Virus record (IMG/VR): IMGVR_UViG_3300019885_000001
Span: 1-40,435 of that record
Source of the DNA: a virus
DNA length: 40,435 bases
Direction: 5' to 3' (one strand)
In this document: one piece after another, positions 4,096 to 40,435 of the stretch
Layout of the letters: every line of letters begins with the position of its first letter
Position numbering within the stretch: position 1 is the first letter of the stretch
Notes under the pieces: model-generated
Databases searched by the model: none
What the model was told of the DNA's origin: nothing
Seen by the model: the letters and a program-made list of their open reading frames with translations, nothing else
Program-made: the position numbers and the translations under genes

Positions 4096-4437
4096 TTAGT
4101 TAGCTAAATAATAACCTAATTGTATCTGGCCAGAATATCTGTCTCGAATCCAGCCACGTTTAGTCCAACAATCTTTACACAAGATCAATAAAGCATCAGT
4201 TCGTATTTTATATCTTACTGTCGGCGTAATCTTAACGGATTTTTCACAAGCATCACATTGATTAGTCATACAAAGCAAACTTCTAAATAATAAATTCCAA
4301 CTTTTAAAATGTTTCCGCCTTCGTTTTAATTCTTTTCTTACTTCTTCATCATGCCTATAACTATGTCTTTTATAATGTTTATTTCTCATTTTCGCTATTG
4401 TCGGACAATAGTCGGACAATATATATATCTCCCCCAT
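4096..4437 (-). CDS. Zinc-ribbon protein with basic N-terminus
   Basis: The C-terminal half has CDACEKS (CxxC) and, about 25 residues on, CKDC, a four-Cys zinc ribbon. The preceding segment is very basic (RKELKRRRKHFKSWN), suggesting nucleic-acid binding. The start is uncertain: ATG 4437 has AAAGG directly against it; ATG 4389 gives 97 residues and would leave the tandem 11-bp repeat (4400-4421) upstream of the gene. It could be a regulator of the leftward region. Confidence 0.6.
   Translation of the reverse strand: MGEIYILSDYCPTIAKMRNKHYKRHSYRHDEEVRKELKRRRKHFKSWNLLFRSLLCMTNQCDACEKSVKITPTVRYKIRTDALLILCKDCWTKRGWIRDRYSGQIQLGYYLAN
4400..4421. repeat. Tandem 11-bp direct repeat
   Basis: GTCGGACAATA occurs twice with no gap (4400-4410, 4411-4421). 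It lies within the long form of the 4096-4437 gene or directly upstream of its short form, where it could be an operator. Confidence 0.6.
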
Positions 4438-4635
4438 CCTTTACTTTTGAGTTATGTATCAGGCAGAGAGTTTAGCTAAGTACGGGACTGATCATTCGGC
4501 TGGGCAGAGGAAAATGATTTAACATTTTACTACTTTAGTAGCATGGGAAAGGAACTGTTTATCCCAGCTTTCACATCAGGCTCTTACTTAGAGGTAGGTG
4601 TTTTTTAGAATCGGCGAAACTTGTTTTTTGCTAAC

Positions 4636-4674
4636 ACCGTAGGAAATGCAATTTGTGCCTAAATTGTCTACGGT
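4636..4674. ncRNA. Bulged hairpin in the terminase upstream region
   Basis: ACCGTAG (4636-4642) pairs with CTACGGT (4668-4674). Inside, GCAATTT (4648-4654) pairs with AAATTGT (4661-4667) around a GTGCCT loop, leaving a 5-base bulge on one side. An alternative pairing, GGTGTT near 4595 with AACACC (4633-4638), would compete with it. Confidence 0.45.
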
Positions 4675-4682
4675 AATTTAAA

Positions 4683-4765
4683 AACCCTATCGCATAGCGG
4701 TTGGGCTGACCTGTTAGAGTTACAGACCAACCAACCATGTGGTAGGGTTCTTACAGTCTAACAGG
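4683..4765. ncRNA. Interleaved helices, possible pseudoknot or RNA switch
   Basis: Three helices can be read directly. AACCCTATCGCAT (4683-4695) pairs with ATGTGGTAGGGTT (4737-4749), 13 bp with two wobbles if RNA. GGTTGG (4699-4704) pairs with CCAACC (4731-4736) and would stack on it. CCTGTTAGA (4710-4718), in the loop of that stem, pairs perfectly with TCTAACAGG (4757-4765) downstream. The last pairing crosses the first two, giving either a pseudoknot or two alternative folds. Transcription direction is unknown, though with the terminase genes it would be the plus strand. Confidence 0.5.
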
Positions 4766-4810
4766 CTTTGCGTAATTTAAACTACTGATTGAATTATACC
4801 ACATCTAACT

Positions 4811-4819
4811 TGTGGATAA
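4811..4819 (-). promoter_or_regulatory. DnaA-box-like 9-mer
   Basis: TGTGGATAA is the exact reverse complement of the classical DnaA box TTATCCACA and lies in the A/T-rich gene-free region. A single 9-mer can occur by chance; the same word also occurs inside the fibre gene near 31415. Weak evidence for an origin. Confidence 0.25.
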
Positions 4820-4892
4820 AATTAGCCAGATTTGTAAGAATGTGGCAAAATAAAAGCAATAAAATTAGCAGTAAACAAGGAGTTAATATCCA

Positions 4893-5210
4893 ATGGCTGG
4901 TGGCAGAAAAAGCATGAAAGAAGAAATTGAAGTCGTGAAATATATGACCGAGTTAGCGGGTCCGACTTTTGATTTTATAAAATCCTGCATTGAAGGCAAA
5001 AATAAACCTGATAAGAAATGGGCAGTTGAGCAAATGATAAAGCTTTATGGCAAAGCCATACCCGATGCTGGTGATGACCCTACAAAGCCTATTTACGTGC
5101 AAATAGCCAAAGAATTAGCAGAGAAAAACAATATCGATGAATCTAACCCCGAAACAGTCGATAATAGCCCAGGATCGTCACCGCTACCGGGTCCTGAACA
5201 CGGGGCGTAG
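4893..5210 (+). CDS. terS: Putative terminase small subunit
   Basis: A 105-residue helical protein directly before the large terminase gene, the usual place of the DNA-recognition subunit. It has a basic start (MAGGRKSMKEE), helices to about residue 70 (DKKWAVEQMIKLYGKAIP) and a disordered Pro/Ser-rich tail. AAGGAG lies about 10 bases before its ATG. It overlaps the large subunit by 74 bases. The call rests mainly on position, size and helical pattern. Confidence 0.65.
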   Translation: MAGGRKSMKEEIEVVKYMTELAGPTFDFIKSCIEGKNKPDKKWAVEQMIKLYGKAIPDAGDDPTKPIYVQIAKELAEKNNIDESNPETVDNSPGSSPLPGPEHGA

Positions 5211-6372
5211 GTTTGGCAAAACCACTCTGGCCGTATTGGAGATGATTGCCAAAGCATTTGCCCAGAAAAATAGGCGGATAAGCTATATTGCCCCGACTTA
5301 TCAACAGGCTAGAGATATTGCCTGGGCAGAACTCTTGCGCCAAGCCCAGCCTTTAATCCACAAGGTCAATGAAAGCCGGCTGGAATTGAAAATCAAAACC
5401 CAGGATAGAGGCATATCGCTGATTACTTTGCGAGGCTGGGAGTCTGTGGAAACCGCCAGAGGCACATTTAACGATTTTTTAGTCTTAGACGAAGTTTCAG
5501 GCTATAAAAATTTCTGGCTGAATTGGCAGGAAGTACTTAGGCCAACGCTGACTGACCGCAAGGGTGAGGTTATGTTTATTTCCACGCCCAAAGGCTTTAA
5601 TCATTTTTTCGATTTGTATAATTTGGAAAATACGGATAAGGATTTTAAAAGTTTTCATTTTACCAGCTATGACAATCCCTTCTTGCCCGAAGAAGAACTG
5701 GATAAAGCCAGAGCCGAACTTACCGAGGACAGGTTTGCCCAGGAGTATCTGGCGGATTTCAGAAAAACTGAAGGCTTGGTATATAAAGATTTTTCAAGGG
5801 ACAGGCATTTATACAGCCAGCATGAGATTGAATCGGCGGAGTATATCGCGGGGATTGATTTTGGATTTACCAACCCTGCCGCGGTCTTATCAATCAGGCG
5901 GGATAAGGATGACAATTACTGGGTTGAAAAAGAATGGTATAAGACAGGGAGAACCGATGCCCAAGTGGCGGAATATGTCGCGTCCTGTGGATTCAATCGT
6001 GTCTATCCCGATCCTGAGTCGCCGGGGGCGATTGAAGCGCTTAATCAAAAAGGCGTATCAGTCAGCGAAGTTGTTAAGGGCAAGGATTCGGTAGCCAACG
6101 GCATTAGCAAAGTCAGAGAGCTGTTTAAGCAGAATCGCCTGCATATCCACAAGGATTGCGTAGCTTTGATTAGTGAATTGGAAACTTACAGCTACCCTGA
6201 CAAGAAGCCTGACCACAATGAACAGGAAAATCCAATTAAAGAAAACGACCATGCCCTCGATAGTTTAAGGTATGCCATTATGGGCAACCAGCCGCAGGGG
6301 ATTATCAGCCGGGAAGAAATACTTGAACGGAGTTTGGTCCGCCAAAGAGCATTAATCAACCAATCCAGATGA
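5137..6372 (+). CDS. terL: Terminase large subunit (ATPase and nuclease)
   Basis: This DNA-packaging motor of 411 residues has all the expected motifs: Walker A GRRFGKTT at residues 23-30, Walker B LVLDE near 115-119, the coupling motif FISTPKG near 148-153, and an RNase H-like nuclease with acidic residues at D241 (GIDFGFTN), D292 (YPDPESPG) and D375 (DHALDSLRYA). It cuts concatemers and pumps DNA through the portal. It overlaps terS by 74 bases. The next small gene starts by ATGA overlap with its stop. Confidence 0.95.
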   Translation: MNLTPKQSIIAQDRHRYRVLNTGRRFGKTTLAVLEMIAKAFAQKNRRISYIAPTYQQARDIAWAELLRQAQPLIHKVNESRLELKIKTQDRGISLITLRGWESVETARGTFNDFLVLDEVSGYKNFWLNWQEVLRPTLTDRKGEVMFISTPKGFNHFFDLYNLENTDKDFKSFHFTSYDNPFLPEEELDKARAELTEDRFAQEYLADFRKTEGLVYKDFSRDRHLYSQHEIESAEYIAGIDFGFTNPAAVLSIRRDKDDNYWVEKEWYKTGRTDAQVAEYVASCGFNRVYPDPESPGAIEALNQKGVSVSEVVKGKDSVANGISKVRELFKQNRLHIHKDCVALISELETYSYPDKKPDHNEQENPIKENDHALDSLRYAIMGNQPQGIISREEILERSLVRQRALINQSR

Positions 6373-8802: not shown

Positions 8803-8930
8803 TGCCGTTTAAAAGTGTAGCTCAACTTCACTGGATGTATGCCAATAAGCCTGACATGGCAAATCGCTGGATGAAAGAAACGCCGCACCCCGAGAAGCTG
8901 CCCAAAAGGAAAAAGAAGAAAAGAAAATAA
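8802..8930 (+). CDS. Small conserved-type phage head-cluster protein, 42 aa
   Basis: MPFKSVAQLHWMYANKPDMA is followed by NRWMKETPHPEKLPKRKKKK. Phages often encode tiny proteins of the form MP-KS-AQ-x-(F/W)-A-KP-x-A-x-W-x-ET-x-LP-K near their head genes, and this one fits. The role of that group is unknown. The stop codon forms part of a hairpin (8927-8977). Confidence 0.65.
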   Translation: MPFKSVAQLHWMYANKPDMANRWMKETPHPEKLPKRKKKKRK

Positions 8931-8977
8931 GCTCTAGCTGGGAGCGGAGTTTTAATCCGTTTCCAGGTGTAGCTTAT
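8927..8977. other. Two-tier hairpin upstream of the scaffold gene
   Basis: ATAAGCT (8927-8933) pairs perfectly with AGCTTAT (8971-8977). A symmetric 4/4 internal loop follows, then CTGGGAGCGGA (8938-8948) pairs with TCCGTTTCCAG (8956-8966) with two wobbles around a 7-base loop GTTTTAA. No T-run follows, so it is not a normal terminator. It may be an mRNA processing or stability element between portal-side and scaffold/capsid messages. Confidence 0.6.
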
Positions 8978-9018
8978 ACACTCATATTGGCCATGCCTGG
9001 CCTATCAATGGCAAACAT

Positions 9019-9549
9019 ATGGCAGAAGATGCCGAAGATGTAGAGCTGGATACTCCTATCGAGCCGGCAGAGGAAGCCGAAAAAACCGATAATGTCGAAG
9101 AACCCGTGGCTGACACGGAAACTGAGGATATAGAAAAGATTAAAGAATCAAATAAGCGATTATTTGAACGGGCTAAAAAAGCCGAAGCCGAGGCCAAGCT
9201 GTTAAAGGCCGAACGCCTAAAAGCGGAAGAGCAGGCTAAGGTTCAACCAATAAATAATTCCGACTATCTTTTGCGTGAAGAAGGCATACTCATCGCGCAA
9301 GGCATGGAAGCTGATGATCTTGATGAATTAAAAGCCGTTGCTAAGGCCAAAGATTTGTCTTTGCTTAAAGCCAAGGACACTCCGTTGTTTCAGGGTTATC
9401 TTGAACGGGCGGAAGCTGACCGCAAAAAAGAAAAGGCAAAACTTTCCGCTAGCAGAGGCTCATCAGTTAAACAGGAAAAATCAATTACTCAGCTGACACG
9501 CGAGGAGCATGAAGCTTTGGCAAAAGAAATGGCGGAAAAAATAAGGTAA
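9019..9549 (+). CDS. Putative scaffolding protein
   Basis: A 176-residue, very acidic then charged-helical protein (Glu/Ala/Lys heptads between about 30 and 85) directly before the major capsid gene, the usual place and composition of a phage scaffold. It would guide capsid assembly inside the prohead and then leave. The C-terminus (REEHEALAKEMAEKIR) is a charged helix like those that bind coat protein in known scaffolds. No protease domain is seen. Confidence 0.7.
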   Translation: MAEDAEDVELDTPIEPAEEAEKTDNVEEPVADTETEDIEKIKESNKRLFERAKKAEAEAKLLKAERLKAEEQAKVQPINNSDYLLREEGILIAQGMEADDLDELKAVAKAKDLSLLKAKDTPLFQGYLERAEADRKKEKAKLSASRGSSVKQEKSITQLTREEHEALAKEMAEKIR

Positions 9550-10462: not shown

Positions 10463-10489
10463 ACAATCTGATATAATAACTGCAGTTAG

Positions 10490-10531
10490 CCTTGTAATTA
10501 AAAAGGACACCACTTACAAGGCGGTGTCCTT
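10490..10531 (+). terminator. Stem-loop after the capsid gene with competing pairing
   Basis: AAGGACACC (10503-10511) pairs perfectly with GGTGTCCTT (10523-10531). Its loop holds TTACAAGG (10514-10521), which pairs perfectly with CCTTGTAA just upstream (10490-10497). With only one base joining the second and fourth strands, both helices are unlikely to form fully together, so they may be alternative folds. The weak T content after the stem suggests a partial terminator or attenuator. Confidence 0.5.
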
Positions 10532-10546
10532 CTTGATAGGAATTGA

Positions 10547-11038
10547 ATGAAAAAAATAGCGTTAGGCGGCAAAAGGGGTCAAGATAAATATCTTTTAATA
10601 GATAATGAAAAATATGATTTAGTTAAAAAATATTCTTGGTATTTAAGCTCTTACGGATATGCTATTGCCCATCATTTAGGAAAAGGAAAAAATTATAAAA
10701 AAATTTATGCTCATTTATTAATAATAAACTGTCCTAAAGGGATGGAAATAGATCATATCAATCATAATAAATTAGATAATCGCCGCCGGAATTTAAGAAT
10801 TTGCACGCGTTCTCAAAACCAAATGAATAAAATAAAATTAAAAAATAATATTTCTGGATTTACAGGTGTAATTTGGGATAAACAAAATAAGAAGTTTCGT
10901 GCGCAAATTCAAGTTAATAAAAAACATTTTCATCTTGGTTTATTTGAAACAAAAGAACAAGCTGCCGAGATTTATAATCAAAAAGCAAAATATTTATTTG
11001 GTCAATTTTTTAATATTAAAAAATTAGGCAATTTATGA
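10547..11038 (+). CDS. HNH homing endonuclease with AP2-type DNA-binding domain
   Basis: This 163-residue protein has an HNH nuclease core (EIDHINHNKLDNRRRNLR near residues 66-83) followed by an AP2-like domain (SGFTGVIWDKQNKKFRAQIQ near 103-122, then HLGLFETKEQAAEIYNQKA). This is the standard plan of free-standing phage HNH-AP2 homing endonucleases, which cut phage DNA lacking the gene and spread by repair. It is visibly more A/T-rich than the capsid gene, supporting separate origin. AGGA lies before the ATG. Confidence 0.9.
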   Translation: MKKIALGGKRGQDKYLLIDNEKYDLVKKYSWYLSSYGYAIAHHLGKGKNYKKIYAHLLIINCPKGMEIDHINHNKLDNRRRNLRICTRSQNQMNKIKLKNNISGFTGVIWDKQNKKFRAQIQVNKKHFHLGLFETKEQAAEIYNQKAKYLFGQFFNIKKLGNL

Positions 11039-11337
11039 ATGGCGTGATACTTTCTCCGAATATAAAAAAGGAATCAGTCAGGATTGATTCTCAAGGCAAT
11101 GTTATTGACCCCAAGACAAAACAGATTATAAAGCCAAATGTTCCTGATTACATTCCGACCAAAGAAGAAATAGAAGGGCTGGCTAAAAAACAAACTGTTC
11201 CACAAGAAACCAAAACTAATCTATCCATAACTGAGCAGATAGCTGAAGCTGAAAAGCGTTTGGCTGATTTGAAATTACAAAAACAGCAAGAGATTGCCAG
11301 AATGAAAGAGGAATTAAAAAAGTTGGAGGCTTCTTGA
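11035..11337 (+). CDS. Hypothetical protein with C-terminal coiled coil, 100 aa
   Basis: The first half is mixed with a Pro-rich stretch; residues about 65-100 form a charged helix (ITEQIAEAEKRLADLKLQKQ). The ATG overlaps the stop of the HNH gene. It was probably next to the capsid gene before the HNH insertion, so it may be a head component, or the first gene of the sugar island. No family recognised. Confidence 0.6.
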   Translation: MNGVILSPNIKKESVRIDSQGNVIDPKTKQIIKPNVPDYIPTKEEIEGLAKKQTVPQETKTNLSITEQIAEAEKRLADLKLQKQQEIARMKEELKKLEAS

Positions 11338-12383
11338 AGGTTTATTTTACTCTGTCCATGCAGGAAGGCTGTTATTTCTATCGCTGTTTGACGCCTTTAA
11401 TAGCCGGCGGCTGGGATGGCGACAAGACCAGTTTAAGAAACTGGCATTTTAATGAAAATTCAATGGCTCAGGCTTGCATGGACGCGGACATTGTCGTCTT
11501 TCAGAGGCCGAATGACGAACGCTGCTTGCAGATTGCCGATACGCTTAGAAAACTGGGCAAGAAGATTGTCATGGATTCAGACGATACATATAAGGATATT
11601 GACGGGCATAAATTTGAGTATCTTTTGGATAAAGTTAATAAATATTTGGATGAATTTGGACGCAAAGCTGATTTGATTACTTGTCCCACGGAATTTTTGG
11701 CTAAAGAATACAGGGAGTTGAATGACAATGTCGCTGTTTTGCCGAACTGCATTGATCCTAATGCCTGGCCCGAGCCTTTAAGAAACGAGGGCGATAAGGT
11801 TCGCATTGGCGTAGTCGGCTCAACCGCTTACGAATCAGATTGGCAGGGATTTAAGCAGGTTTTGGAGTCGCTGAACAGAAAAAATGATGTGCAATTGGTT
11901 TTGTTTGGCTTGCCTGCCAAAGATGAGGATACGGCAAGGGTTGTTCAAAAAGTTCATGCCAAAGATTACGCTTTCTGGGAAAGTTTGAATATTGAATGGC
12001 AACCGCTGGTGCCTATGGCAGATTATTTTGATACTCTGAATGAATTGCGGCTGGATTTAATGCTTATTCCCAGAGCCGACAGATATTTTAATCGGTGTAA
12101 AAGCAATCTTAAATTCTTGGAAGCTTCCATGCTGGAGATACCGGTTATAGCCCAGGGGTTTACAACTAATGACAGTCCTTATCAGCAAAATCCTAAAGAC
12201 AGCCAATTTATGCGGGTCATCATCGATAATTCCAAATGGATGGATGAAATAAAAATGTTTTTAAGATACAAAAGCTTAAGGCGGGATTGGGGACAGAAAG
12301 CCAAGCAATATGTTTTAGAAAATTACAATATCGCTGTTAAAATTCATTTATGGGAACAGGAATATGCCAAACTTTTTGGATAA
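11334..12383 (+). CDS. Glycosyltransferase, GT4-like (GT-B fold)
   Basis: The 349-residue protein has the two-domain GT-B pattern: an N-terminal Rossmann-like half with IVMDSDDTY near 80-90, a linker, then RIGVVGSTAYESDW starting a second Rossmann-like half, and a C-terminal donor-binding region (RCKSNLKFLEASMLEIPVIA) matching the E-x7-E-type segment of GT4 enzymes. It would transfer a sugar from a nucleotide donor. The start codon is TTG, overlapping the previous stop; this is the first gene of the carbohydrate island. Confidence 0.8.
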   Translation: MKVYFTLSMQEGCYFYRCLTPLIAGGWDGDKTSLRNWHFNENSMAQACMDADIVVFQRPNDERCLQIADTLRKLGKKIVMDSDDTYKDIDGHKFEYLLDKVNKYLDEFGRKADLITCPTEFLAKEYRELNDNVAVLPNCIDPNAWPEPLRNEGDKVRIGVVGSTAYESDWQGFKQVLESLNRKNDVQLVLFGLPAKDEDTARVVQKVHAKDYAFWESLNIEWQPLVPMADYFDTLNELRLDLMLIPRADRYFNRCKSNLKFLEASMLEIPVIAQGFTTNDSPYQQNPKDSQFMRVIIDNSKWMDEIKMFLRYKSLRRDWGQKAKQYVLENYNIAVKIHLWEQEYAKLFG

Positions 12384-12942
12384 ACATTTTGGGCGTTTGG
12401 GAAACAGGTTTTTTCAAAGTGCATACATTTACGCCCAATGGCGGGAGGGCAAGATACCGGATATTTATTTGCAGAATTATGAGTACTTCGATAAGTACAA
12501 GGTGGAGTTGCAGGCTATGTTCAGCGAAGGGATTGGTTATGATAGCCGAGTCAGCATTCATGTCAGGCGCGGAAAAAATCCCAGCAATCCTGATGAACCC
12601 GCGTATTTTGAAAATCCTTTTTATGTGAACTTATGGGAAACCGATTATTATCAAAAAGCTATGGCCATGTTTCCTGACGAGCAGTTTTTGATATTCAGCG
12701 ACGATATCCAGTGGTGCATGGAACAGAAATTTTTTAAAAATCAAACTTTCTCTTTCGGAACGGAAATGGAAGACTTTAAACTTATGGCAAGTTGCAAATC
12801 CAACATTATTTGCAACAGCACTTATGGCTGGTGGGCGGCGTATCTTAATCCCAATCCTGATAAGATTGTGGTCGCGCCTAAAGAGTGGTTTACCGATAAA
12901 ATTGAACGGGTGAAATGCCCGCCTGAATGGAAAAGAATATGA
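12364..12942 (+). CDS. Glycosyltransferase family 11-like (fucosyltransferase type), short
   Basis: GRLGNRFFQSAYIYA near residues 10-24 matches the G-LGNQ-FQYA opening of GT11 alpha-1,2-fucosyltransferases; SIHVRRGK is the HxRRG motif for GDP-fucose binding, with Lys where Asp is usual; SNIICNSTYGWWAAYLN matches the third GT11 motif. At 192 residues it is about 100 shorter than typical members. GT11 enzymes use GDP-fucose, but the donor here could be another GDP-sugar such as the product of the next gene. It overlaps its neighbour by 20 bases. Confidence 0.8.
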   Translation: MPNFLDKHFGRLGNRFFQSAYIYAQWREGKIPDIYLQNYEYFDKYKVELQAMFSEGIGYDSRVSIHVRRGKNPSNPDEPAYFENPFYVNLWETDYYQKAMAMFPDEQFLIFSDDIQWCMEQKFFKNQTFSFGTEMEDFKLMASCKSNIICNSTYGWWAAYLNPNPDKIVVAPKEWFTDKIERVKCPPEWKRI

Positions 12943-13892
12943 ATTGTTTAATTACTGGAAGCTCAGGATTTATAGGGTCGAATCTTATTAAGCGCTTGAA
13001 ACAAGACGGCCATTATGTCGTGGGCGTGGACATAAAAAAGCCGAGATTTGCCAGACCTGATGAGTTTTTATTGGGCGATTTGCGCAACCCTGCTGTTTGG
13101 GAAAAATTGTTTTCTCATCCCCAAATATCCTTTGATAGATTATATGCCCTTGCGGCTTGGATGGGTGGAGCTGGGGTAATTTTTACTGGCGATAACGATT
13201 CAGAAATTTTGCATGACAACGCGCTTATCAATATCAATACTGCCCATTACGCAACCATTAATAAAGTTAAACAGGTGTTCTATTCCTCTTCAGCTTGCGT
13301 TTATCCGCCGATTGATGAACTTACCGCCCAGTTGACCAACTATGATTACAAAGAGACTGACGCTTACCCGGCTATGCCTGACAATGAATATGGTTGGGAA
13401 AAACTGTTCTCGGAACATTTATACTTGTCGTACAATAAGAACAAAGGGCTGAATGTGCGACTAGCTCGGTTTCATAATACTTTCGGGCCGTATTGTGCGT
13501 GGAAAGGAGGCAGAGAGAAAGCTCCAGCCGCCATTTGCCGTAAAGTCATTGAGGCTGACAATGAGATAGAAATGTGGGGAGACGGCGAACAGACTCGTTC
13601 CTTTTTATACATTGATGAATGTCTGGACGGAGTGGAAAAACTGATGCAATCGGATTTTGTCGGGACGGTTAATATCGGCTCATCGGAGTTGATTTCCATT
13701 AACCAATTAGCAGAGTGGGCTATGGAATTTAAAGGCAGAAAACTAAAGATAAACCATATTGACGGCCCGGTCGGCATCAGGGGACGCAATTCGGATAACA
13801 CTTTGATTGAACAGAAACTTGGTTGGAAACCAAGCAGACCGACTAAAGAGGGATTGTTAAAACTGTATAAATGGATTGAAAGCCAAATATGA
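12939..13892 (+). CDS. GDP-mannose 3,5-epimerase homologue
   Basis: This extended short-chain dehydrogenase has GSSGFIG (NAD-binding), the YGWEK catalytic pair (Tyr151, Lys155), SSACVYPP with the Cys used by GDP-mannose 3,5-epimerase (Cys120), and GGREKAPAAICRK with its acid/base Lys (Lys194). The stretches EMWGDGEQTRSFLYIDEC and GIRGRNSDNTLIEQKLGW are nearly diagnostic of that enzyme, best known from plants, which makes GDP-L-galactose and GDP-L-gulose. The start at 12939 gives an ATGA junction; an ATG four codons upstream is possible. Confidence 0.85.
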   Translation: MNCLITGSSGFIGSNLIKRLKQDGHYVVGVDIKKPRFARPDEFLLGDLRNPAVWEKLFSHPQISFDRLYALAAWMGGAGVIFTGDNDSEILHDNALININTAHYATINKVKQVFYSSSACVYPPIDELTAQLTNYDYKETDAYPAMPDNEYGWEKLFSEHLYLSYNKNKGLNVRLARFHNTFGPYCAWKGGREKAPAAICRKVIEADNEIEMWGDGEQTRSFLYIDECLDGVEKLMQSDFVGTVNIGSSELISINQLAEWAMEFKGRKLKINHIDGPVGIRGRNSDNTLIEQKLGWKPSRPTKEGLLKLYKWIESQI

Positions 13893-14548
13893 TTTCAATA
13901 GTCATCCCAACTTATCACATGAAATATGGCTTAGAGTTTCTCAAGCAGTCGTTTGATATGCTGAAACAGCAGACATACAAAGATTTTGAAGTTGTGGTAA
14001 CTGACGATTCTATGGATGATGAGATTAGGGATTTTTGCCAGGAAGAAAAAGATTTGCCTTTAAGATTTATTAAAAACATGGGAACTCCGGGAATGGCCGG
14101 GAACACCAATACCGCCATGCTTTATGCCAATGGCGATTTGATTAAAATTCTTTATCAAGACGATAGGCTTTATCACAGCCGGGCGTTGGAAGTAATTGCC
14201 GCTCACTTTAAGCCTAAGGATAATTGGCTGGCAACATCCTGCACGCATACTGATGGTTCAGTCCATTGGCCAACTTACAGTGATGAGATACTTAAAGGGG
14301 TTAATACAATCGGTTCGCCCAGCGTTATCACAATCCGCAAACAGGCTAATCCGATTTTGTTCAATACCAAACTGACTTGGGTGTTGGATTTGGATTATTA
14401 TTACCGAATGAAACAAAAGTTTGGCGAGCCAAAGCTGGTTTATGACATTAACGTTATAATCAACACAGGCGATCACCAGACGACTTTTAACTTGTCGGAT
14501 GAACGCAAATTAGCCGAAGTAAATTATTTAAAGGAGAAATACTTATGA
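13889..14548 (+). CDS. Family 2 glycosyltransferase
   Basis: MISIVIPTYHMKYGLEFLKQ opens a typical GT-A nucleotide-binding domain. VVVTDDSMDD near residues 35-44 and KILYQDD near 88-94 (the DxD-like metal site) follow, and GMAGNTNTAMLYANGDLI is the usual helix before it. It would add one sugar to a growing glycan. At 219 residues it is a catalytic domain without membrane anchor. It overlaps both neighbours by 4 bases. Confidence 0.85.
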   Translation: MISIVIPTYHMKYGLEFLKQSFDMLKQQTYKDFEVVVTDDSMDDEIRDFCQEEKDLPLRFIKNMGTPGMAGNTNTAMLYANGDLIKILYQDDRLYHSRALEVIAAHFKPKDNWLATSCTHTDGSVHWPTYSDEILKGVNTIGSPSVITIRKQANPILFNTKLTWVLDLDYYYRMKQKFGEPKLVYDINVIINTGDHQTTFNLSDERKLAEVNYLKEKYL

Positions 14549-15654
14549 AAATTTTGTATTCAGCCGCTGTATTCGGGGATGAAGAAAAGAACGCCGTATG
14601 GCTGGCATTGGGCAACACCATGCTCTCAGTCGGGCCGTTGTCAGAGGAGTTTGAAAAGCAGATCGCCAAGCTGTTTAATAAAAAATATGCGGTTTTTGTC
14701 AATTCAGGCAGCAGCGCCAATCTTTTGGCTTGCACTATCTTGCCCAAAGGCGAAGTTATCACGCCGGCTCTGACTTTTGCCACGACGCTTGCTCCGATTA
14801 TTCAGACAGGACACAAGCCGGTATTTGTGGATTCGGAGATCAGCACTTACTTGCCGACCATAGAAAATATCGAGAAGTTGATAACCAAAAAAACTGTGGC
14901 GGTTTTAATTCCCAACTTACTGGGCAATCGCATGGACTCGGCTAGGTTAAGAGCTTTGTGTGATGAGAAAAATATAATTTATATCGAAGATGATTGCGAT
15001 ACTATCTGCGAATCTTCGGGACACATAGCCATAACTTCTTTTTACGGCTCGCACATCATAACTGCCATGGGCGGGGGTGGCATGATTATGACTGATGATG
15101 AGACATTAGCTAAAAGATTCAGAACCATGCGGGATTGGGGACGAGGGGCGACCGAGAGCGAAGTTATCGCGGACAGATACACCCAGACTGTCGGCAACTT
15201 TCTTTACGACAATAAATTTTTGTATGTGGAAAAAGGATTTAATTTCAGGCCGGTTGAGGCTATGGCCGCGTTCGGCTTGGAGCAGTTAAAAAGACTGGAT
15301 GGTTTTTTGGCTAAGCGCAAAGCCAACTTTATAAGCCTGCTGGAGTTCTTTGAGCGGGAGTTTCCGCAGTTTACATTGCCGTTTACGCAATTTCACGCCA
15401 ATTGGCTGGCTTTTCCTCTGTTGGTTGATAACAGGTATAAATTGGTCAAGTATCTGGAGGAGCATGAAATTCAAACTCGCCCGATATTTTCAGGCAACAT
15501 TACCAGACATCCTGCTTTTTACAGCTCCCACCGCCCAAGGAAGTTTCCTAATGCCGATTATGTTATGAAACACGGGCTATTAATCGGCATACATCAGGGA
15601 TTGGGCGAGGAGCAGTTGGAGTATATTAAGCAAACTTTTAGAGGCTTTAAATGA
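14545..15654 (+). CDS. DegT/DnrJ/EryC1/StrS-family PLP enzyme with His in place of catalytic Lys
   Basis: The fold is clear over 369 residues: NSGSSANLLA (phosphate loop, near 53-62), EVITPALTFATTLAP, IEDDCDT near 148-153, and MRDWGRG. In sugar aminotransferases the PLP Lys lies in SF-x-TK-x-x-x-GEGG; here the segment reads SFYGSHIITAMGGGG, with His170 in that place. The same swap defines the 3-dehydratases RfbH/E1 and ColD, which remove the sugar 3-OH. The Cys cluster of E1 is absent, so ColD-like (GDP-sugar) chemistry is closer. This fits the GDP-mannose epimerase next door. Confidence 0.85.
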   Translation: MKILYSAAVFGDEEKNAVWLALGNTMLSVGPLSEEFEKQIAKLFNKKYAVFVNSGSSANLLACTILPKGEVITPALTFATTLAPIIQTGHKPVFVDSEISTYLPTIENIEKLITKKTVAVLIPNLLGNRMDSARLRALCDEKNIIYIEDDCDTICESSGHIAITSFYGSHIITAMGGGGMIMTDDETLAKRFRTMRDWGRGATESEVIADRYTQTVGNFLYDNKFLYVEKGFNFRPVEAMAAFGLEQLKRLDGFLAKRKANFISLLEFFEREFPQFTLPFTQFHANWLAFPLLVDNRYKLVKYLEEHEIQTRPIFSGNITRHPAFYSSHRPRKFPNADYVMKHGLLIGIHQGLGEEQLEYIKQTFRGFK

Positions 15655-16292
15655 ACATTCTTTTAACAGGCGGTTCAGGGCTGTTAGGTTCGCAGTTAAT
15701 TCCGATATTGGGTAAAAAGAGAGATTGGAAAGTGATAGCTCCACCGCACAAGCTTTTGGATATTACCCAAGCTCCGATTACGTCGTATCAAGGCATAGAT
15801 TTGCTGATTCATTGCGCTGCTTACACCAAAGTTGAACAAGCCGAAATTGATAGGCAAGAATGTTTTGAAACCAATGTTAACGGTACGTTCAATCTGTTGC
15901 TGGCGTATCCCAAAGTTCCGTTTGTGTTTATTTCAACCGAGTATGCCCATAGGCCGATTAATTTTTACAGTCTGACTAAAAGATTGGCAGAACACGTGGT
16001 TACTTATCAAGCAACGCCTTATCTGATTATCAGGACTTTATTTAAGCCAAGACCATTTCCTCACCCCAAAGCATTTACTGATATGTTTACTTTAGGAGAT
16101 TACGCGGATAAAATCGCTTCCAAGATTTACTATGCAATTAGCGAATGGCAGGAGGATAAGAAGTCTAAATTGATATATATAGGCACAGGCCGAAAAAGTA
16201 TGTTTGAATTGGCGAAAGAAACCCGCCCTGATGTTGAGCCTATGAGCATTAAAGATATTAAGACAGTTAAATTACCTTCTGATTATCAATGA
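15651..16292 (+). CDS. RmlD-like NAD(P)-dependent sugar reductase, short
   Basis: MNILLTGGSGLLGSQLIPIL is a GxxGxxG nucleotide-binding start; DLLIHCAAYTKVEQAE matches the RmlD-type D-V-N-AAYT-VD-AE motif, and YSLTK supplies the Tyr and Lys of the active site. RmlD reduces a 4-keto sugar to the final deoxysugar. At 213 residues it is shorter than usual (about 290), with the substrate-binding end reduced. It could reduce the keto intermediate made by the preceding DegT-like enzyme. Confidence 0.75.
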   Translation: MNILLTGGSGLLGSQLIPILGKKRDWKVIAPPHKLLDITQAPITSYQGIDLLIHCAAYTKVEQAEIDRQECFETNVNGTFNLLLAYPKVPFVFISTEYAHRPINFYSLTKRLAEHVVTYQATPYLIIRTLFKPRPFPHPKAFTDMFTLGDYADKIASKIYYAISEWQEDKKSKLIYIGTGRKSMFELAKETRPDVEPMSIKDIKTVKLPSDYQ

Positions 16293-16876
16293 TAAAATTG
16301 CCTATGATAACTCTGGCTTGCATGACCGGAGTTGGCTATAAAACACAAGAGCATAAGGAAGCGATAAGGAAAAGCTGTAAAGATATAAAGTTCGGAGCCG
16401 TTAAACTGATTGAGCTGGAACAAATAAAAGATATTGGAACTTGGAATGAGGCGGTGATTTACGAATTGCCTAGACACATTGAAACTGACTATTGCTTATT
16501 TATTCATCATGACGGATATATTATTCACCCCGAACTTTGGAAAGATGAATGGCTCAATTATGATTTTATCGGAGCACCTTGGCCAATGCCTAAAGATAAT
16601 TATTCATATAGAACGCTTTTAGGCAGATTGATTCGGGTCGGCAATTCAGTCAGCTTAAGAAGCAAAAAATTAATGGATTTAGCGGCAATTAGGCTAATGG
16701 AATATCATCATGGAAATAACAACGAGGACGGAGCGATATGCGTCTGGCAAAGGGATTGGCTAGAGGAACAAGATTGTAAGTTTGCCCCATTGGAGGTTGC
16801 TAAGTATTTCAGCAAAGAGCATGAGATAGAGGAGAATAAAGACATTAAAAAAACTTTCGCTTTTCACTCACTATGA
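16289..16876 (+). CDS. Putative glycosyltransferase, DUF5672-like
   Basis: CLFIHHDGYIIHPELWKDEW followed by LNYDFIGAPW is the signature of the DUF5672 group, predicted GT-A-type glycosyltransferases in polysaccharide clusters. HHDGY probably takes the place of the DxD metal site. A later NEDGAICVWQRDWLEE segment matches the conserved end (N-E-D). The protein is 195 residues, soluble, and overlaps both neighbours by 4 bases. Confidence 0.75.
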   Translation: MIKLPMITLACMTGVGYKTQEHKEAIRKSCKDIKFGAVKLIELEQIKDIGTWNEAVIYELPRHIETDYCLFIHHDGYIIHPELWKDEWLNYDFIGAPWPMPKDNYSYRTLLGRLIRVGNSVSLRSKKLMDLAAIRLMEYHHGNNNEDGAICVWQRDWLEEQDCKFAPLEVAKYFSKEHEIEENKDIKKTFAFHSL

Positions 16877-17610
16877 TAGCCACTAATTTGGAGGAAGGAA
16901 TGGGTTTGGGCAACCAGTTATTTTCATATGTAATGTGCCGTGTTTTAGCTTTGGATTTAAACACGGATTTTGGCATAGGCCACCCGGAATTATTTAAGGG
17001 TAGTTCCTTTATGAATCTGGATTTTGGCAGAAATCTTCAATGGCTGAGGTTTAAATTCAGCGAACAAAGAATTGATACGCCTGAAGGCGTGGATATTCGA
17101 GGCTATGACAAGCGGGTGAAAGATATTAAGGACAACACTCTGATAATGGGCTTATGGCAGGATGAGAATTATTGGAAGCATAGGCTTATGGAAATCGACA
17201 AATGGCTGGCGGTTGAACCTCTAAAAATGCCCAAGAATCTATGTGTTATAAACTTTCGAGGCGGAGAATATAAAGGCGTTGCTGATTTGTATTTAACCCA
17301 TGATTACTGGAGTCTGGCGGTTTCGGAAATGAAAGCCAAAGGAGCAAAGAAATTCATTGTGGTTACCGACGATATGGAAGAAGCTTTGAAATTTTTCCCT
17401 GATTTTGAAGTTATGCACGAGATTGGCAGGGATTGGCGGATGATCCGCTATGCTAATTATTTGATTCTTTCCAATTCCAGTTTCGCCGTACTGCCGGCTT
17501 TATTAAATGAGAATGTAAAATTAGTTTTGGTGCCCCGTTTTTGGGCTGGACGCAATGTTGGCTACTGGAAACTTCCCCAAAATGAATATAAAAAATTCAC
17601 TTATATATAA
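16873..17610 (+). CDS. GT11-like glycosyltransferase
   Basis: GMGLGNQLFSYVMCRVLALD resembles the GT11 opening motif; CVINFRGGEYKGV is the HxRRGDY-like motif with Asn-Phe in place of His-x; LILSNSSFAVLPALLN matches the SNSSFSWW-A-LN motif near the end. It is the second GT11-type gene of the island and clearly different from the one at 12364. Donor and acceptor are unknown. The HNH gene follows, separating it from the next sugar gene. Confidence 0.75.
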   Translation: MIATNLEEGMGLGNQLFSYVMCRVLALDLNTDFGIGHPELFKGSSFMNLDFGRNLQWLRFKFSEQRIDTPEGVDIRGYDKRVKDIKDNTLIMGLWQDENYWKHRLMEIDKWLAVEPLKMPKNLCVINFRGGEYKGVADLYLTHDYWSLAVSEMKAKGAKKFIVVTDDMEEALKFFPDFEVMHEIGRDWRMIRYANYLILSNSSFAVLPALLNENVKLVLVPRFWAGRNVGYWKLPQNEYKKFTYI

Positions 17611-17640
17611 TTGCATTTCTTTACTGGGTATGATATCCAT

Positions 17641-18069
17641 ATGGTTATGGAAAAGAAATGTTTAGAATGTAAAAAAATATTTATTCCTTGGCCATCTAAT
17701 TTTAAAAAAGGAGGTGGTAAATTTTGTTCAATGAAATGCTATCATAGACAGGCTATTTCTCATAGAAAAGGTATAGAATCGCCTTTTTGGAAAGGTAAAA
17801 AGGCGAAGTACGGTGCTGTTCATGATTGGATAAAATCACAATTTGGTAATGCTAAAAAATGTGAAAATTCTGAATGTATTTATCCTAGAAAAACTAAGAA
17901 TGGAATTTTATTATTTCCTCAAAAATTTGATTGGGCTTTGAAAAAAGGAAGAAACTATAATGATAGGAAGAAAGATAGTTTTATTCAATTCTGCCGAAGT
18001 TGTCATAAAAAATATGATTTTAAGAAATCAAAAAAACGAAATAACAAAGGATATTTTATAAAAGTATGA
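17641..18069 (+). CDS. Free-standing HNH-type endonuclease with zinc knuckles
   Basis: It has CLECKKIF and KFCSMKC (a four-Cys zinc site near the N-terminus), then YGAVHDWIKSQFG with CENSEC, and FIQFCRSCHKKYD at the end, the form of the phage HNH group with YxxxHxWxxxxxG...CxxC...D...W/F-xxLCRxCHxxYD. It is strikingly A/T-rich beside its neighbours and sits between two glycosyltransferase genes, so it looks like a homing insertion. The open frame extends 10 codons upstream to a TTG; ATG 17641 or 17647 is preferred. Confidence 0.75.
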   Translation: MVMEKKCLECKKIFIPWPSNFKKGGGKFCSMKCYHRQAISHRKGIESPFWKGKKAKYGAVHDWIKSQFGNAKKCENSECIYPRKTKNGILLFPQKFDWALKKGRNYNDRKKDSFIQFCRSCHKKYDFKKSKKRNNKGYFIKV

Positions 18070-18746
18070 AAATTAGAGATGATACTTTTGTAGTGATTTC
18101 TAAATATAACAGCGATGCTGACTGGATCAAAAAGTATACATGTAACTATCAGATTTACGACAAGTCTGACCCTGTTCCAAACTACCCAGAAAAAAATTTA
18201 TTAGGTTATAGGGATATACGGATTCCGAATGTAGGGTTTAACCTTTATGCTTATTTTACATACATCATTGAACATTATAAAAATTTACCGGAAATTCTAA
18301 TGCTGATTAAAGGAAACGTTATTAACCGCCATGTCAGCAAAGAATATTTTGAGAGCGTTATGAACAATGATTATTTCACGCCGATTGTCGAAAAAGAAAA
18401 GCTGGAATTTCGCATGACGGATTCTTACTGGGATCACGGCTATATGGAGCATAATTATTTGAATATGTACCATAACATTCTTTATGTCAGGAACCCTAAT
18501 GAATTTTTTGATTTTGTCTATCAAGACCACTACTATCCAACCTATCTGCGGTTTGCCCCAGGCGCTAATTATATCGTCCCTAAAGGCCAGATTTTGCGCC
18601 TGCCGAAAAGTCTGTATCAGGATATGCGGACAATGGTAGAACATCACCAGTTAAGCGGGGAAAGCCATATTATTGAACGCTGTCTGGATACTTTGTGGAC
18701 TTCAGGACTTAAATTAAGGGAACAGCGGATTATTCATACCATATGA
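18066..18746 (+). CDS. DUF3431-like protein, probable glycosyltransferase
   Basis: FVVISKYNSDADWIKKYTCN, then YQIYDKSDP, NVGFNLYAYFTYIIEHYKNL and PEILMLIKGNVINRH follow the order of DUF3431 proteins (V-V-R-Y-D-W, YDKG, N-GREAHTYL-Y-YD-LPD-F-QG). The group is found with glycosyltransferases and is thought to act on glycans. Late His and Glu (HHQLSGESHIIERCLDTLW) are also typical. 226 residues. ATGA junction with the next gene. Confidence 0.65.
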   Translation: MKIRDDTFVVISKYNSDADWIKKYTCNYQIYDKSDPVPNYPEKNLLGYRDIRIPNVGFNLYAYFTYIIEHYKNLPEILMLIKGNVINRHVSKEYFESVMNNDYFTPIVEKEKLEFRMTDSYWDHGYMEHNYLNMYHNILYVRNPNEFFDFVYQDHYYPTYLRFAPGANYIVPKGQILRLPKSLYQDMRTMVEHHQLSGESHIIERCLDTLWTSGLKLREQRIIHTI

Positions 18747-19525
18747 AAATCGTGGATTGCGTGTTATTCAACGGCGAGAAAGAAGTCTTGGATTTAAGAT
18801 TGAATATTCTTAAGGATTTTGTCGATTATTTCATAGTCTGCGAAGCGACCTCAACCTTCAGCGGCAAAAGCAAACCTTTGTATTATCTGGAAGATTTGGA
18901 AAAATACCAAAAATTTTCCATAGAATATTATATGATTGGCGATGACTTTACCGCAGAAGAAATTGATCTGGCCGAGAACAGCCCCAATACCAAAGGCCCT
19001 GCTCATTTTCTCCATGAGTTTCTGCAAAAGGAGAGGATTAAAAAAGCTTTGATAGGCTTAGATGCTGAGGATATAGTTTTTATTTCCGACTGCGATGAAA
19101 TTTATGATCCCAAATCTCTATCCATAATTCCCGAGGGAATTTACAGGATTAACCAGATCGTTTATGTTTATTATTTGAACAATAAAAGCGATGAGCAATG
19201 GGCTGGAACTTTATTATGCAAATATAAAGACATTAAGGATGGCTGTTTGAATCATCTGCGGACGGCTAAACATTCCATAATCGGCAATGGCTGGCACTTC
19301 ACCAGCTTAGCCAAAGATTTAAGACGGAAATTAACGGACAGTTATACTGCCGAGAGTTACGCCGCTGATTATGTCTTGAATAATCTGGAAAAGAATATTA
19401 AAGCCAATAAAGACTTTTTAGGCAGAGATTTTAAATACGAGATAGACGAAAGCCAATGGCCGGAATACTTAACCAATAACAGAAGCAAATATGCCGAACT
19501 GTTCCGTAATAATCCCGGTATTTAA
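18743..19525 (+). CDS. GT17-family glycosyltransferase (beta-1,4-GlcNAc transferase type)
   Basis: KIVDCVLFNGEKEVLDLRLN and ILKDFVDYFIVCEA, TFSGKSKPLYYLE are the hallmark opening of GT17, the family of animal MGAT3 (adds the bisecting GlcNAc of N-glycans) with bacterial and viral members. DIVFISDCDEI near 112-122 holds the acidic metal site, and NGWHFTSL is the conserved late segment. 260 residues, so only the catalytic domain. It overlaps the next gene by 35 bases. Confidence 0.85.
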   Translation: MKIVDCVLFNGEKEVLDLRLNILKDFVDYFIVCEATSTFSGKSKPLYYLEDLEKYQKFSIEYYMIGDDFTAEEIDLAENSPNTKGPAHFLHEFLQKERIKKALIGLDAEDIVFISDCDEIYDPKSLSIIPEGIYRINQIVYVYYLNNKSDEQWAGTLLCKYKDIKDGCLNHLRTAKHSIIGNGWHFTSLAKDLRRKLTDSYTAESYAADYVLNNLEKNIKANKDFLGRDFKYEIDESQWPEYLTNNRSKYAELFRNNPGI

Positions 19526-20147
19526 CCAGGAAGAATACTTAGCCGAGGCTATTGAATCAGCGCTGGCTCAAACTGTTCCTGTGGAGGTAATCGTGGTTGA
19601 CGATGGTTCGATTGACGACAGCTTTAAAATCGCTTCCAAATATCCGGTTAAATTGGTTTCTCATATGTTTAATCGGGGATTGTCAGCCGCCAGAAATACG
19701 GGTATTCGCCATGCCCAGGGAGTCAGGATTCTATGTTTGGATTCGGATGATACTATTGAACCGACTATGGTGGAAAAATGTCAGAATATTCAGGGCGTGG
19801 CAGTTGTCGGAGTGCATAATTTTGGGGACAGGCTAGAGGCTTGGGTCCTGCCTTACCAAGACTTAACCTTGGAAGCATTTAAGATTCAAAATCGAATAAC
19901 CTGCTGCTCCATGTTTGATAAAAAAGACTGGCAAGCCGTAGGCGGATTTGATGAGGAAATGAAACTGGGAAAAGAAGATTATGACTTCTGGTTGTCCTTA
20001 TTGAAACGGGAAGTGAAATTTACTCCGATTAACGAACTTCTGTTTAATTACCGCATGAAAGCTGATAGTATGGCCTTAAGAGCAGATAGCATGGAACAGG
20101 AAATTTTGGAATATATCCACAACAAACACAAAGATTTATGGACTTAG
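19491..20147 (+). CDS. Family 2 glycosyltransferase
   Basis: MPNCSVIIPVFNQEEYLAEA, then VIVVDDGSIDDS (residues 33-44), RGLSAARNTGIRHA and ILCLDSDDTIEP (DxDD metal site) give a complete GT2 GT-A domain; GKEDYDFWLSLLKR supplies the catalytic ED segment. 218 residues without membrane helices. The start lies inside the GT17 gene in another frame. It resembles the next gene and may be its paralogue. Confidence 0.9.
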   Translation: MPNCSVIIPVFNQEEYLAEAIESALAQTVPVEVIVVDDGSIDDSFKIASKYPVKLVSHMFNRGLSAARNTGIRHAQGVRILCLDSDDTIEPTMVEKCQNIQGVAVVGVHNFGDRLEAWVLPYQDLTLEAFKIQNRITCCSMFDKKDWQAVGGFDEEMKLGKEDYDFWLSLLKREVKFTPINELLFNYRMKADSMALRADSMEQEILEYIHNKHKDLWT

Positions 20148-20827
20148 TCAGCATTGTTATTCCCGTATATAATGGCGAACAATACATCAGGCAAGCTTTA
20201 GACTCCGCTTTGGCTCAGACATACAAGAATATAGAGATTATTGTGGTCAATGACGCCAGCACGGATAAAACGGAGGATATAGTAAAACAGTATTCAGTTA
20301 AGTATTTGAAGCACGAAACAAACAAAGGGTTGAGCGCTGCCATGAACACAGGGTTAGCTCATAGCAAAGGCCAATACTTAATGGAACTTGATTGCGATGA
20401 TTACATTGATAAAGAGTTGGTGGAATTATCCTTGCAATGGTTTGAAGCTAAAAAAACGGATATAGTCGGAGTCTGGCAAAAAGAATTTGGCGATAGAGGA
20501 GAAATTCACTATTTCCATCCCAATCCCACTCATAAAGATTTTCTTAATGGCAATAAGATTAACTGCTCCTCTATGTACAAAAGAAAAGTTTATGAGGCTA
20601 TGCTAAAAGAATATGGATTCATGTACGACGAGAAACTGAAAGTTTATCAAGATTGGCAGGCTTGGATTCGGGCAACCAAGTTGGGATTTACCGTGGCCAC
20701 TATTCCCCTGCCTTTGTTCCATTATCGGATTCATAAAGGCTCGCTGATAACCGACATGCTGGCTAGTAATACCCGCCATGACGCTTTTGAGGTTATGAAA
20801 GATTCGTTGCCTGATATTTTTAAATAA
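20138..20827 (+). CDS. Family 2 glycosyltransferase
   Basis: MDLVSIVIPVYNGEQYIRQA, IIVVNDASTDKTEDI, KGLSAAMNTGLAHSKGQYLM and ELDCDDYID give the usual GT2 order, with the metal site in DCDD. VYQDWQAWIRA replaces the more usual ED-W segment. 229 residues, last gene of the carbohydrate island, overlapping its predecessor by 10 bases. Substrates unknown. Confidence 0.9.
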   Translation: MDLVSIVIPVYNGEQYIRQALDSALAQTYKNIEIIVVNDASTDKTEDIVKQYSVKYLKHETNKGLSAAMNTGLAHSKGQYLMELDCDDYIDKELVELSLQWFEAKKTDIVGVWQKEFGDRGEIHYFHPNPTHKDFLNGNKINCSSMYKRKVYEAMLKEYGFMYDEKLKVYQDWQAWIRATKLGFTVATIPLPLFHYRIHKGSLITDMLASNTRHDAFEVMKDSLPDIFK

Positions 20828-39578: not shown

Positions 39579-39618
39579 ATTATTTTGTTAAGGTGCTGTC
39601 CGCTACACCAAGTTAATG

Positions 39619-39640
39619 ATACTCACCGGTTGGTGAGTAT
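39619..39640. promoter_or_regulatory. Operator-like palindrome at the transcription start
   Basis: ATACTCACC (39619-39627) and GGTGAGTAT (39632-39640) are exact inverted arms around GGTT. The site covers the expected start of transcription from the adjacent promoter. The form with a central ACCGGTTGGT core recalls TetR-type operators. Confidence 0.6.
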
Positions 39641-39644
39641 AATC

Positions 39645-39673
39645 ATTATAGCAAATTTGGTCAATCCTGTCAA
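39645..39673 (-). promoter_or_regulatory. Perfect sigma-70 type promoter
   Basis: Minus strand TTGACA (39673-39668), 17-base spacer, TATAAT (39650-39645): a full consensus match at the best spacing. Start of transcription is expected near 39638, inside the palindrome. Confidence 0.85.
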
Positions 39674-40265: not shown

Positions 40266-40435
40266 ATGCCGAAAGTTATCTGTGATTTTTGCTTAAAGCC
40301 CGTCAAACCCGGAGAGGTAACAGAGAAGATCGGCCCCTACTTATTCCATTCTCCCACCTGCGCTTCTGAGTGGCATCGCATGCGCCAGCAAGCCGACCGC
40401 TTAACTTGGCGGCATCCTGCAAAGGAGACAGAGTA
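40266..40435 (+). CDS. Zinc-binding miniprotein, 56 codons seen (stop lies beyond the window end)
   Basis: MPKVICDFCLKPVKPGEV starts after a strong AGGAGG site. Zinc ligands are CDFC (residues 6-9) and FHSPTC (27-32), then EWHRMRQQADRLTW. It lies mostly in the 150-bp terminal repeat; in the left copy its stop TAA overlaps the ATG of the 151-330 gene. It is a close paralogue of the 801-977 protein. Divergent from the 39785 gene. Confidence 0.75.
   Translation, partial: MPKVICDFCLKPVKPGEVTEKIGPYLFHSPTCASEWHRMRQQADRLTWRHPAKETE
40286..40435. repeat. Right copy of the 150-bp terminal direct repeat
   Basis: Aligns to 1-150 with mismatches at 40297, 40420 and 40429. See the left copy for interpretation. 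If the two are merged, the genome unit is 40285 bases. Confidence 0.85.

Follow-up and report, generated by a model that had tools for sequence, protein, structure and literature searches.

The RNA known as IsrK, from the prophage Gifsy-1, is described in the accessible part of PMC4825925 as promoter-proximal, as having alternative structures, and as either ending at its own terminator or being read through into the operon; the same part of that source describes, for the CI RNA/seqA-seqC immunity of phage P4, complementary segments in an untranslated leader that decide premature termination. The put RNA of phage HK022, as far as the accessible part of PMC9378689 goes, is some 70 nt long, follows an early promoter and forms two stem-loops, and it suppresses termination through RNA polymerase.

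The locus considered here is an element at 4636-4765 of the window (by which is meant the whole stretch of DNA that was analysed, a viral record of 40435 bases), and its closest working likenesses appear to be IsrK and the P4 CI system, at least as these are set out in the accessible accounts. With IsrK it would share the character of a phage RNA near a promoter, with an early end or read-through and with alternative structures, and with P4 the combination of complementary leader segments and premature termination, all of which are here predicted from sequence. It would differ from IsrK in that its alternative helix overlaps the terminator hairpin itself (and in having no Rfam match), and from P4 in that the processed P4 RNA pairs with two complementary sites, whereas here the segments called a and a' below are single, with one occurrence each, and pair within one RNA. 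The likeness to put, compared by layout only, would lie in place and in the presence of two stem-loops, which are here predicted on the minus strand and 3 nt apart; put, however, acts against termination, whereas the first stem-loop of the element is itself terminator-like.

The c4 antisense RNA is a small phage RNA situated in the leader under its control. It is RF01695 (so named in the accessible part of PMC2864571), from which the element differs in finding no match in Rfam scans: with Rfam 15, none of 4227 families was reached at its gathering score, and the best match below threshold was to a microRNA family at 25 bits against a cut-off of 50. This bears out the first-pass annotation, which had recognised no known RNA class, and because Rfam finds nothing no membership in such a class is claimed. 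In being a structured RNA close to packaging genes the element would also recall the packaging RNA of phi29, but no Rfam match exists here and the phage encodes a terminase large subunit; the phi29 ATPase is of another type than terminase. In the literature searched, where coverage of subscription papers is slight, no RNA of such a kind is named before a terminase gene.

The first and last 150 bases of the record (1-150 and 40286-40435) are identical at 147 positions, implying that the genome is probably near-complete and circular or permuted, probably with variants assembled together. A hand-made list of 56 ORFs leaves 3167 of the 40435 bases (7.8%) non-coding, and the element sits in a gap of about 455 bases that separates the leftward ORF 4096-4437 from the rightward ORFs 4893-5210 and 5137-6372; this gap is a divergent control region, more than a mere leader of the terminase genes. 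The ORF at 4096-4437 (minus strand, 113 aa, Cys-rich, start codon uncertain) is the first of a leftward gene set that begins at 4437 and then runs from 3915 down to 602, and at its start, at 4397-4419, lie two tandem near-palindromes like TTGTCSGACAA, which are operator-like. On the plus strand, 5137-6372 encodes the terminase large subunit (phrog_2, E 4.6e-54; PF03237), with no more than about 32% identity to cultured phages among the matches listed, and by this measure the phage, an uncultured one, is distant from all cultured ones. ORF 4893-5210 (plus strand, 105 aa) has no family match in Pfam or PHROGs and is taken as the small terminase subunit by its position; a 20-residue stretch of it is 55% identical to the ORF in the same place at three related loci (L009-L011). 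The same gap also contains a second long hairpin (4476-4592, whose 17-base arms are complementary at 82% of positions and whose minus-strand z is -3.2). Elsewhere, some 9.5 kb of glycosyltransferase, sugar epimerase/dehydratase and DegT aminotransferase genes (11334-20827) lie within the structural gene block.

Searching for relatives yielded little with which the element could be compared. By blastn it has no relative among cultured phages, while its terminase large subunit led in viral contigs to 14 loci of 39-67% identity, mostly fragments, at none of which is there similar DNA before the terminase genes; genome contigs gave one terminase match, at 39%. These searches returned no relatives of ORFs 4893, 6550 and 4096, and two distant relatives of ORF 2188, neither of whose records holds the element. 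One 17-base word of the element occurs in 17 contigs, isolated and in other contexts, and a second such word in none. A covariance model, R1, built from a single sequence entered twice, scores the window at 179 bits and is matched in none of the 14 terminase-related and neither of the two ORF 2188-related records; applied to 22 of 33 loci together with the window it gave, outside the window, six fragments of 9-17 bits, each coinciding with the 17-base word that had led to the contig in question. Because a single-sequence model of this kind reaches fairly close relatives only, and because the records are mostly fragments, uniqueness of the element is not established, and for the latter reason its absence from the 14 records is limited evidence. 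At four of these loci (L001 and L009-L011) a gene can be seen by eye to reach right up to the small ORF that precedes the terminase, so that there is no comparable gap, and this counts against an essential packaging RNA there. The idea, raised in the first-pass annotation, that the element might itself be a packaging RNA finds no favour: the terminase large subunit is of the ordinary sort, a small ORF occupies the place of the small subunit, and the count among the 14 related records, mostly fragments, is zero.

As to the element itself, the four helices originally claimed for it are all present, pair by pair. A bulged hairpin at 4636-4674, adjoining the long hairpin (z -3.4 on plus, -2.6 on minus), pairs 4636-4642 with 4668-4674 and 4648-4655 with 4660-4667, leaving 4643-4647 bulged and including two G-T pairs; the long helix, 4683-4695 with 4737-4749, is paired at 13 of 13 positions, two of them T-G or G-T; the helix stacked within it, 4699-4704 with 4731-4736 (GGTTGG with CCAACC), is paired at all six; and the crossing pairing, 4710-4718 with 4757-4765, consists of nine Watson-Crick pairs out of nine. 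The six-pair inner helix thus exists as it was drawn, but another register, 4699-4708 with 4723-4732, computes lower (-43.0 for the nested helices, as against -39.8 in the register first proposed). Set against shuffled sequences, 4636-4765 folds at -48.1 kcal/mol on the plus strand (z -4.14) and at -45.1 kcal/mol on the minus strand (z -3.63), with none of 200 shuffles as good in either case, and the plus-strand element ranks second by z among 1244 windows of 130 nt from both strands, a ranking that somewhat favours it in that it was placed exactly and the others on a fixed grid. The element is a genuine feature and not a random one.

The crossing pairing by itself is only mildly surprising, because shuffling the 130 nt 300 times produces a perfect helix of at least nine pairs in 7 cases. 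What is more unusual is the depth of both folds: for 4680-4770, computed on the plus strand, the fold with the long hairpin comes to -34.4 and that with the crossing pairing to -31.4, i.e. 3 kcal/mol higher, and in 1000 shuffles the first-fold energy was never equalled, while the second folds averaged -17.4 and none reached -31.4. The second fold does owe its depth partly to the first, since its energy is still attained by 34 of 1000 sequences in which the long hairpin retains its arms and shuffling is confined to loop and tail. On the plus strand, crossing pairs of helices of at least 9 bp are found twice, at 4683-4765 and at 10489-10531, as compared with an average of 0.75 and a maximum of 3 in 60 shuffled genomes (one strand); the minus strand has the same two places and a third at 33.6 kb, no T-run being required in this count. 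A pseudoknot or two-state switch had been suggested, and of this the structured element with its two mutually exclusive folds stands, but the plus-strand reading of it is not the one preferred here.

The question of strand is not simple, and the assignment is not settled. Wobble pairs had been thought to suggest selection on RNA, but the best folds of 4636-4765 have the same make-up on either strand, with 39 Watson-Crick pairs and 4 G-U, so that these pairs neither pick a strand nor exclude DNA. The best-fold energies for the same stretch are -45.6 (plus) and -43.7 (minus), and which strand comes out lower depends on the boundaries chosen, being plus for 4636-4765 and for 4615-4885 and minus for 4679-4786. 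The minus strand is favoured because of its context, namely a promoter motif directed into the element. This is the extended -10 motif TGGTATAAT, which occupies minus-strand positions 4801-4793, some 27 bases outside the element, and has no good -35 hexamer, and both the motif and its place are observed directly; the start of any transcript would be expected near 4786. It is a copy of TGNTATAAT, a strong promoter element, of which the record contains four copies, all of them within the bases that the ORF list leaves non-coding and each preceding a gene read in the same direction. In shuffled genomes the mean number of copies is 2.29, and when 455-base regions are shuffled 3.1% contain one, so the count alone proves nothing and the argument is one of placement. 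The control region has no copy on its plus strand and does have one on the minus strand pointing into the element, which tells against the earlier proposal of a leader of the late genes. Another of the four copies, before the 39240-39578 gene, is part of a TTGACA-N17-TATAAT promoter that is perfect and has an extended -10 (39600-39673, minus strand); it is followed by the palindrome ATACTCACCAACCGGTGAGTAT, a likely operator, and its leader has a z of -4.9.

Read on the minus strand, the element resolves into four segments. Segment a, GCCTGTTAGA (4757-4766), belongs to the alternative hairpin and includes what had been annotated as the downstream strand of the pseudoknot; segment b, TAAGAACCCTA (4743-4753), is the 5' arm of a terminator-like hairpin; segment a', TCTAACAGGT (4709-4718), is the partner of a and lies within the loop of b:b'; and segment b', TAGGGTTTTTA (4679-4689), is the 3' arm of the terminator-like hairpin and takes in a T-run at 4684-4680. 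The RNA would accordingly run through a leader of about 20 nt, a, b, a loop with GGTTGGTTGG, a', CCAACC, b' and five U. It is because the parts come in the order a, b, a', b' that what looks on a static map like a pseudoknot can be seen as two competing hairpins. Both helices, and their exclusion of one another as full helices, are matters of direct observation, as is the T-run, and together they make up the layout of an attenuator on this strand: two mutually exclusive full hairpins, the later one with a U-tract (T5, 4684-4680). The plus-strand version of the helix has no T-run after it. The basal stem of b:b' has 10-11 bp, including 3 G-C pairs, followed by only five U and then by AAA; the hairpin is unusually long for a terminator, and a scan for intrinsic terminators with loops of 3-8 does not list it.

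Computed folding of this RNA agrees with such a layout. Over 4786-4679 the minus strand gives -37.9 (z -4.13, with 0 of 300 shuffles as good) and the plus strand -34.9 (z -3.14, 1 of 300), and when minimum-energy folds are calculated for a growing minus-strand RNA, a:a' is best at 76-100 nt and b:b' from 104-108 nt. Stems followed by a T-run, with loops of up to 80 and counting both strands, number seven in the genome, and in only one of these, the element, does an alternative helix of at least 9 pairs overlap the stem, while among 120 shuffled strands there is no such case, albeit by criteria that were set after the site had been seen.

These observations suggest a promoter-proximal terminator/antiterminator RNA on the leftward side, working in the manner of IsrK or the P4 CI RNA, a reading that we hold tentatively and with somewhat less than even confidence, mainly because the plus-strand fold of 4615-4885, discussed below, is also very stable. 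The promoter at 4801-4793 would fire and start a minus-strand RNA near 4786, the first 80 or so bases of which, while emerging, would fold to a:a' (4766-4757 with 4718-4709). Once b' (4689-4679) had emerged, b:b' would be the more stable, with the shape of an intrinsic terminator and five U at its end, and in that state we infer that the transcript would terminate at about 108 nt, yielding a short structured RNA; with a:a' formed instead, RNA polymerase would continue into the leftward gene set. If the switch is regulated, the balance might be tipped by a protein, by a second RNA or by the speed of transcription, no one of these being preferred.

A second site in the same genome has its parts in the same order. 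On the plus strand at 10469-10534, the motif TGATATAAT is followed by a at 10489-10497, b at 10503-10511, a' at 10514-10522 and b' at 10523-10531, and by a hairpin, the whole having the major capsid gene on one side and, on the other, an HNH endonuclease gene that starts at 10547. Each of the crossing sites at 4683-4765 and 10489-10531 comes after one of the four TGNTATAAT motifs. The plus-strand U-tract here is weak (TTCTT) and there is a better T-run on the minus strand, for which reason the site supports the layout more than it does the termination step.

Of the competing explanations, the one that survives best is a structured RNA of about 260 nt on the plus strand (4620-4879), either a leader of the terminase genes or a free RNA, containing the pseudoknot of the first-pass annotation; we regard this as unlikely. 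The computed fold is multi-branched and closed by a 14-bp outer helix with one mismatch (4620-4634 with 4865-4879), which overlaps the likely ribosome-binding site of ORF 4893 at its first three bases, and for 4615-4885 the plus strand reaches -85.3 (z -6.2, 0 of 200 shuffles), the excess over shuffles in a separate run being larger on the plus strand (z -6.6) than on the minus (-4.9). However, those boundaries were derived from the fold itself, and on a fixed grid of 271-nt windows the nearest plus-strand window (4591) ranks fifth of the 593 computed out of 606, behind 8911+, 10261-, 406- and 39016+, so that the stability, strong as it is, is not decisive. (The window at the head of that ranking, 8911-9181 on the plus strand, has the greatest energy excess of the 593, and lies within and around the gap that precedes the 9019 ORF.) There is, moreover, no convincing promoter on the plus strand before 4620, no Rfam match for such an RNA, and no copy of the modelled part, 4632-4768, in any of the 14 related-terminase records. 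A more elaborate version, in which a 260-nt plus-strand RNA with an internal pseudoknot would be a new kind of phage RNA coupling late expression or packaging to its fold and would, through overlap with the minus-strand switch, form a two-strand RNA control element, seems to us extremely unlikely.

It is distinctly unlikely, in our estimation, that the element is a site at the level of DNA, its repeats, DnaA box and position in a divergent gap marking an origin of replication, or else a cos/pac site, with the RNA folding a by-product of palindromes. Folded as single-stranded DNA, 4636-4765 is equally exceptional (z -4.27). Over the promoter there is an inverted repeat, CCACA-N7-TGTGG (4799-4815), seen in the sequence and interpretable as an operator or as a pair of DnaA-box halves, and at it, on the minus strand at 4811-4819, is TTATCCACA, an exact match to the DnaA box consensus. 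This box and the GC-skew minimum (4444) share one gap, but the latter is not independent evidence and may reflect transcription, because the skew turns where gene direction turns. A DnaA-dependent origin has a cluster of DnaA boxes adjoining an AT-rich stretch; here 4781-4860 is 70% AT, and the gap holds a single exact box and no cluster, the only other exact copy in the record being at 31417. Three related records (G009, G012 and, with a degenerate box, G001) also have a box within 370 bases of the skew minimum, although their gene layouts differ. Pfam or PHROGs scans of 46 of the 56 ORFs recognised neither a replication polymerase nor a helicase, making reliance on host replication plausible. 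Against all this, a DNA-level site needs neither the T-run nor the promoter, and an origin or operator function can in any case coexist with the RNA switch.

Very unlikely, too, is that the locus is a small RNA gene and nothing else, transcribed from the promoter at 4801 to the terminator at 4680 and acting in trans, with the leftward genes having a promoter of their own. A search of viral sequences for the combined promoter and inverted repeat, TCCACA-N7-TGTGGTATAAT, found two other contigs, in one of which (L051) a 12-bp stem with a T-rich tail comes after the motif, and more than 2 kb of the same strand are without an ORF of at least 60 aa (in a non-overlapping list). The other, L050, has a shorter hairpin and fails the stem test, a test that 69 of 1500 random stretches pass; and since two matches are close to what chance would give for a collection of that size (by our own estimate), both contigs are given little weight. 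In the window, moreover, leftward genes do follow the element.

That an AT-rich gap has simply thrown up a strong but meaningless hairpin is similarly hard to credit: comparable z values do occur in other windows, some of them within ORFs (38676+, 23011-, 22556+), but none of the 1000 shuffles of 4680-4770 reached the first-fold energy or matched the depth of the second fold, and the element stands second of 1244 by z. A transposable element between the 10-base direct repeats GTAATTTAAA (4673 and 4772) was rejected, such a repeat being likely enough by chance on a rough estimate.

With the strand corrected in favour of the leftward terminator/antiterminator RNA, what was a pseudoknot on one strand would be the signature of an attenuator on the opposite one. 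If that reading is true, an uncultured phage would be governing its leftward genes by means of RNA-based premature termination, and, with the layout recurring at 10469, would be employing the device more than once.
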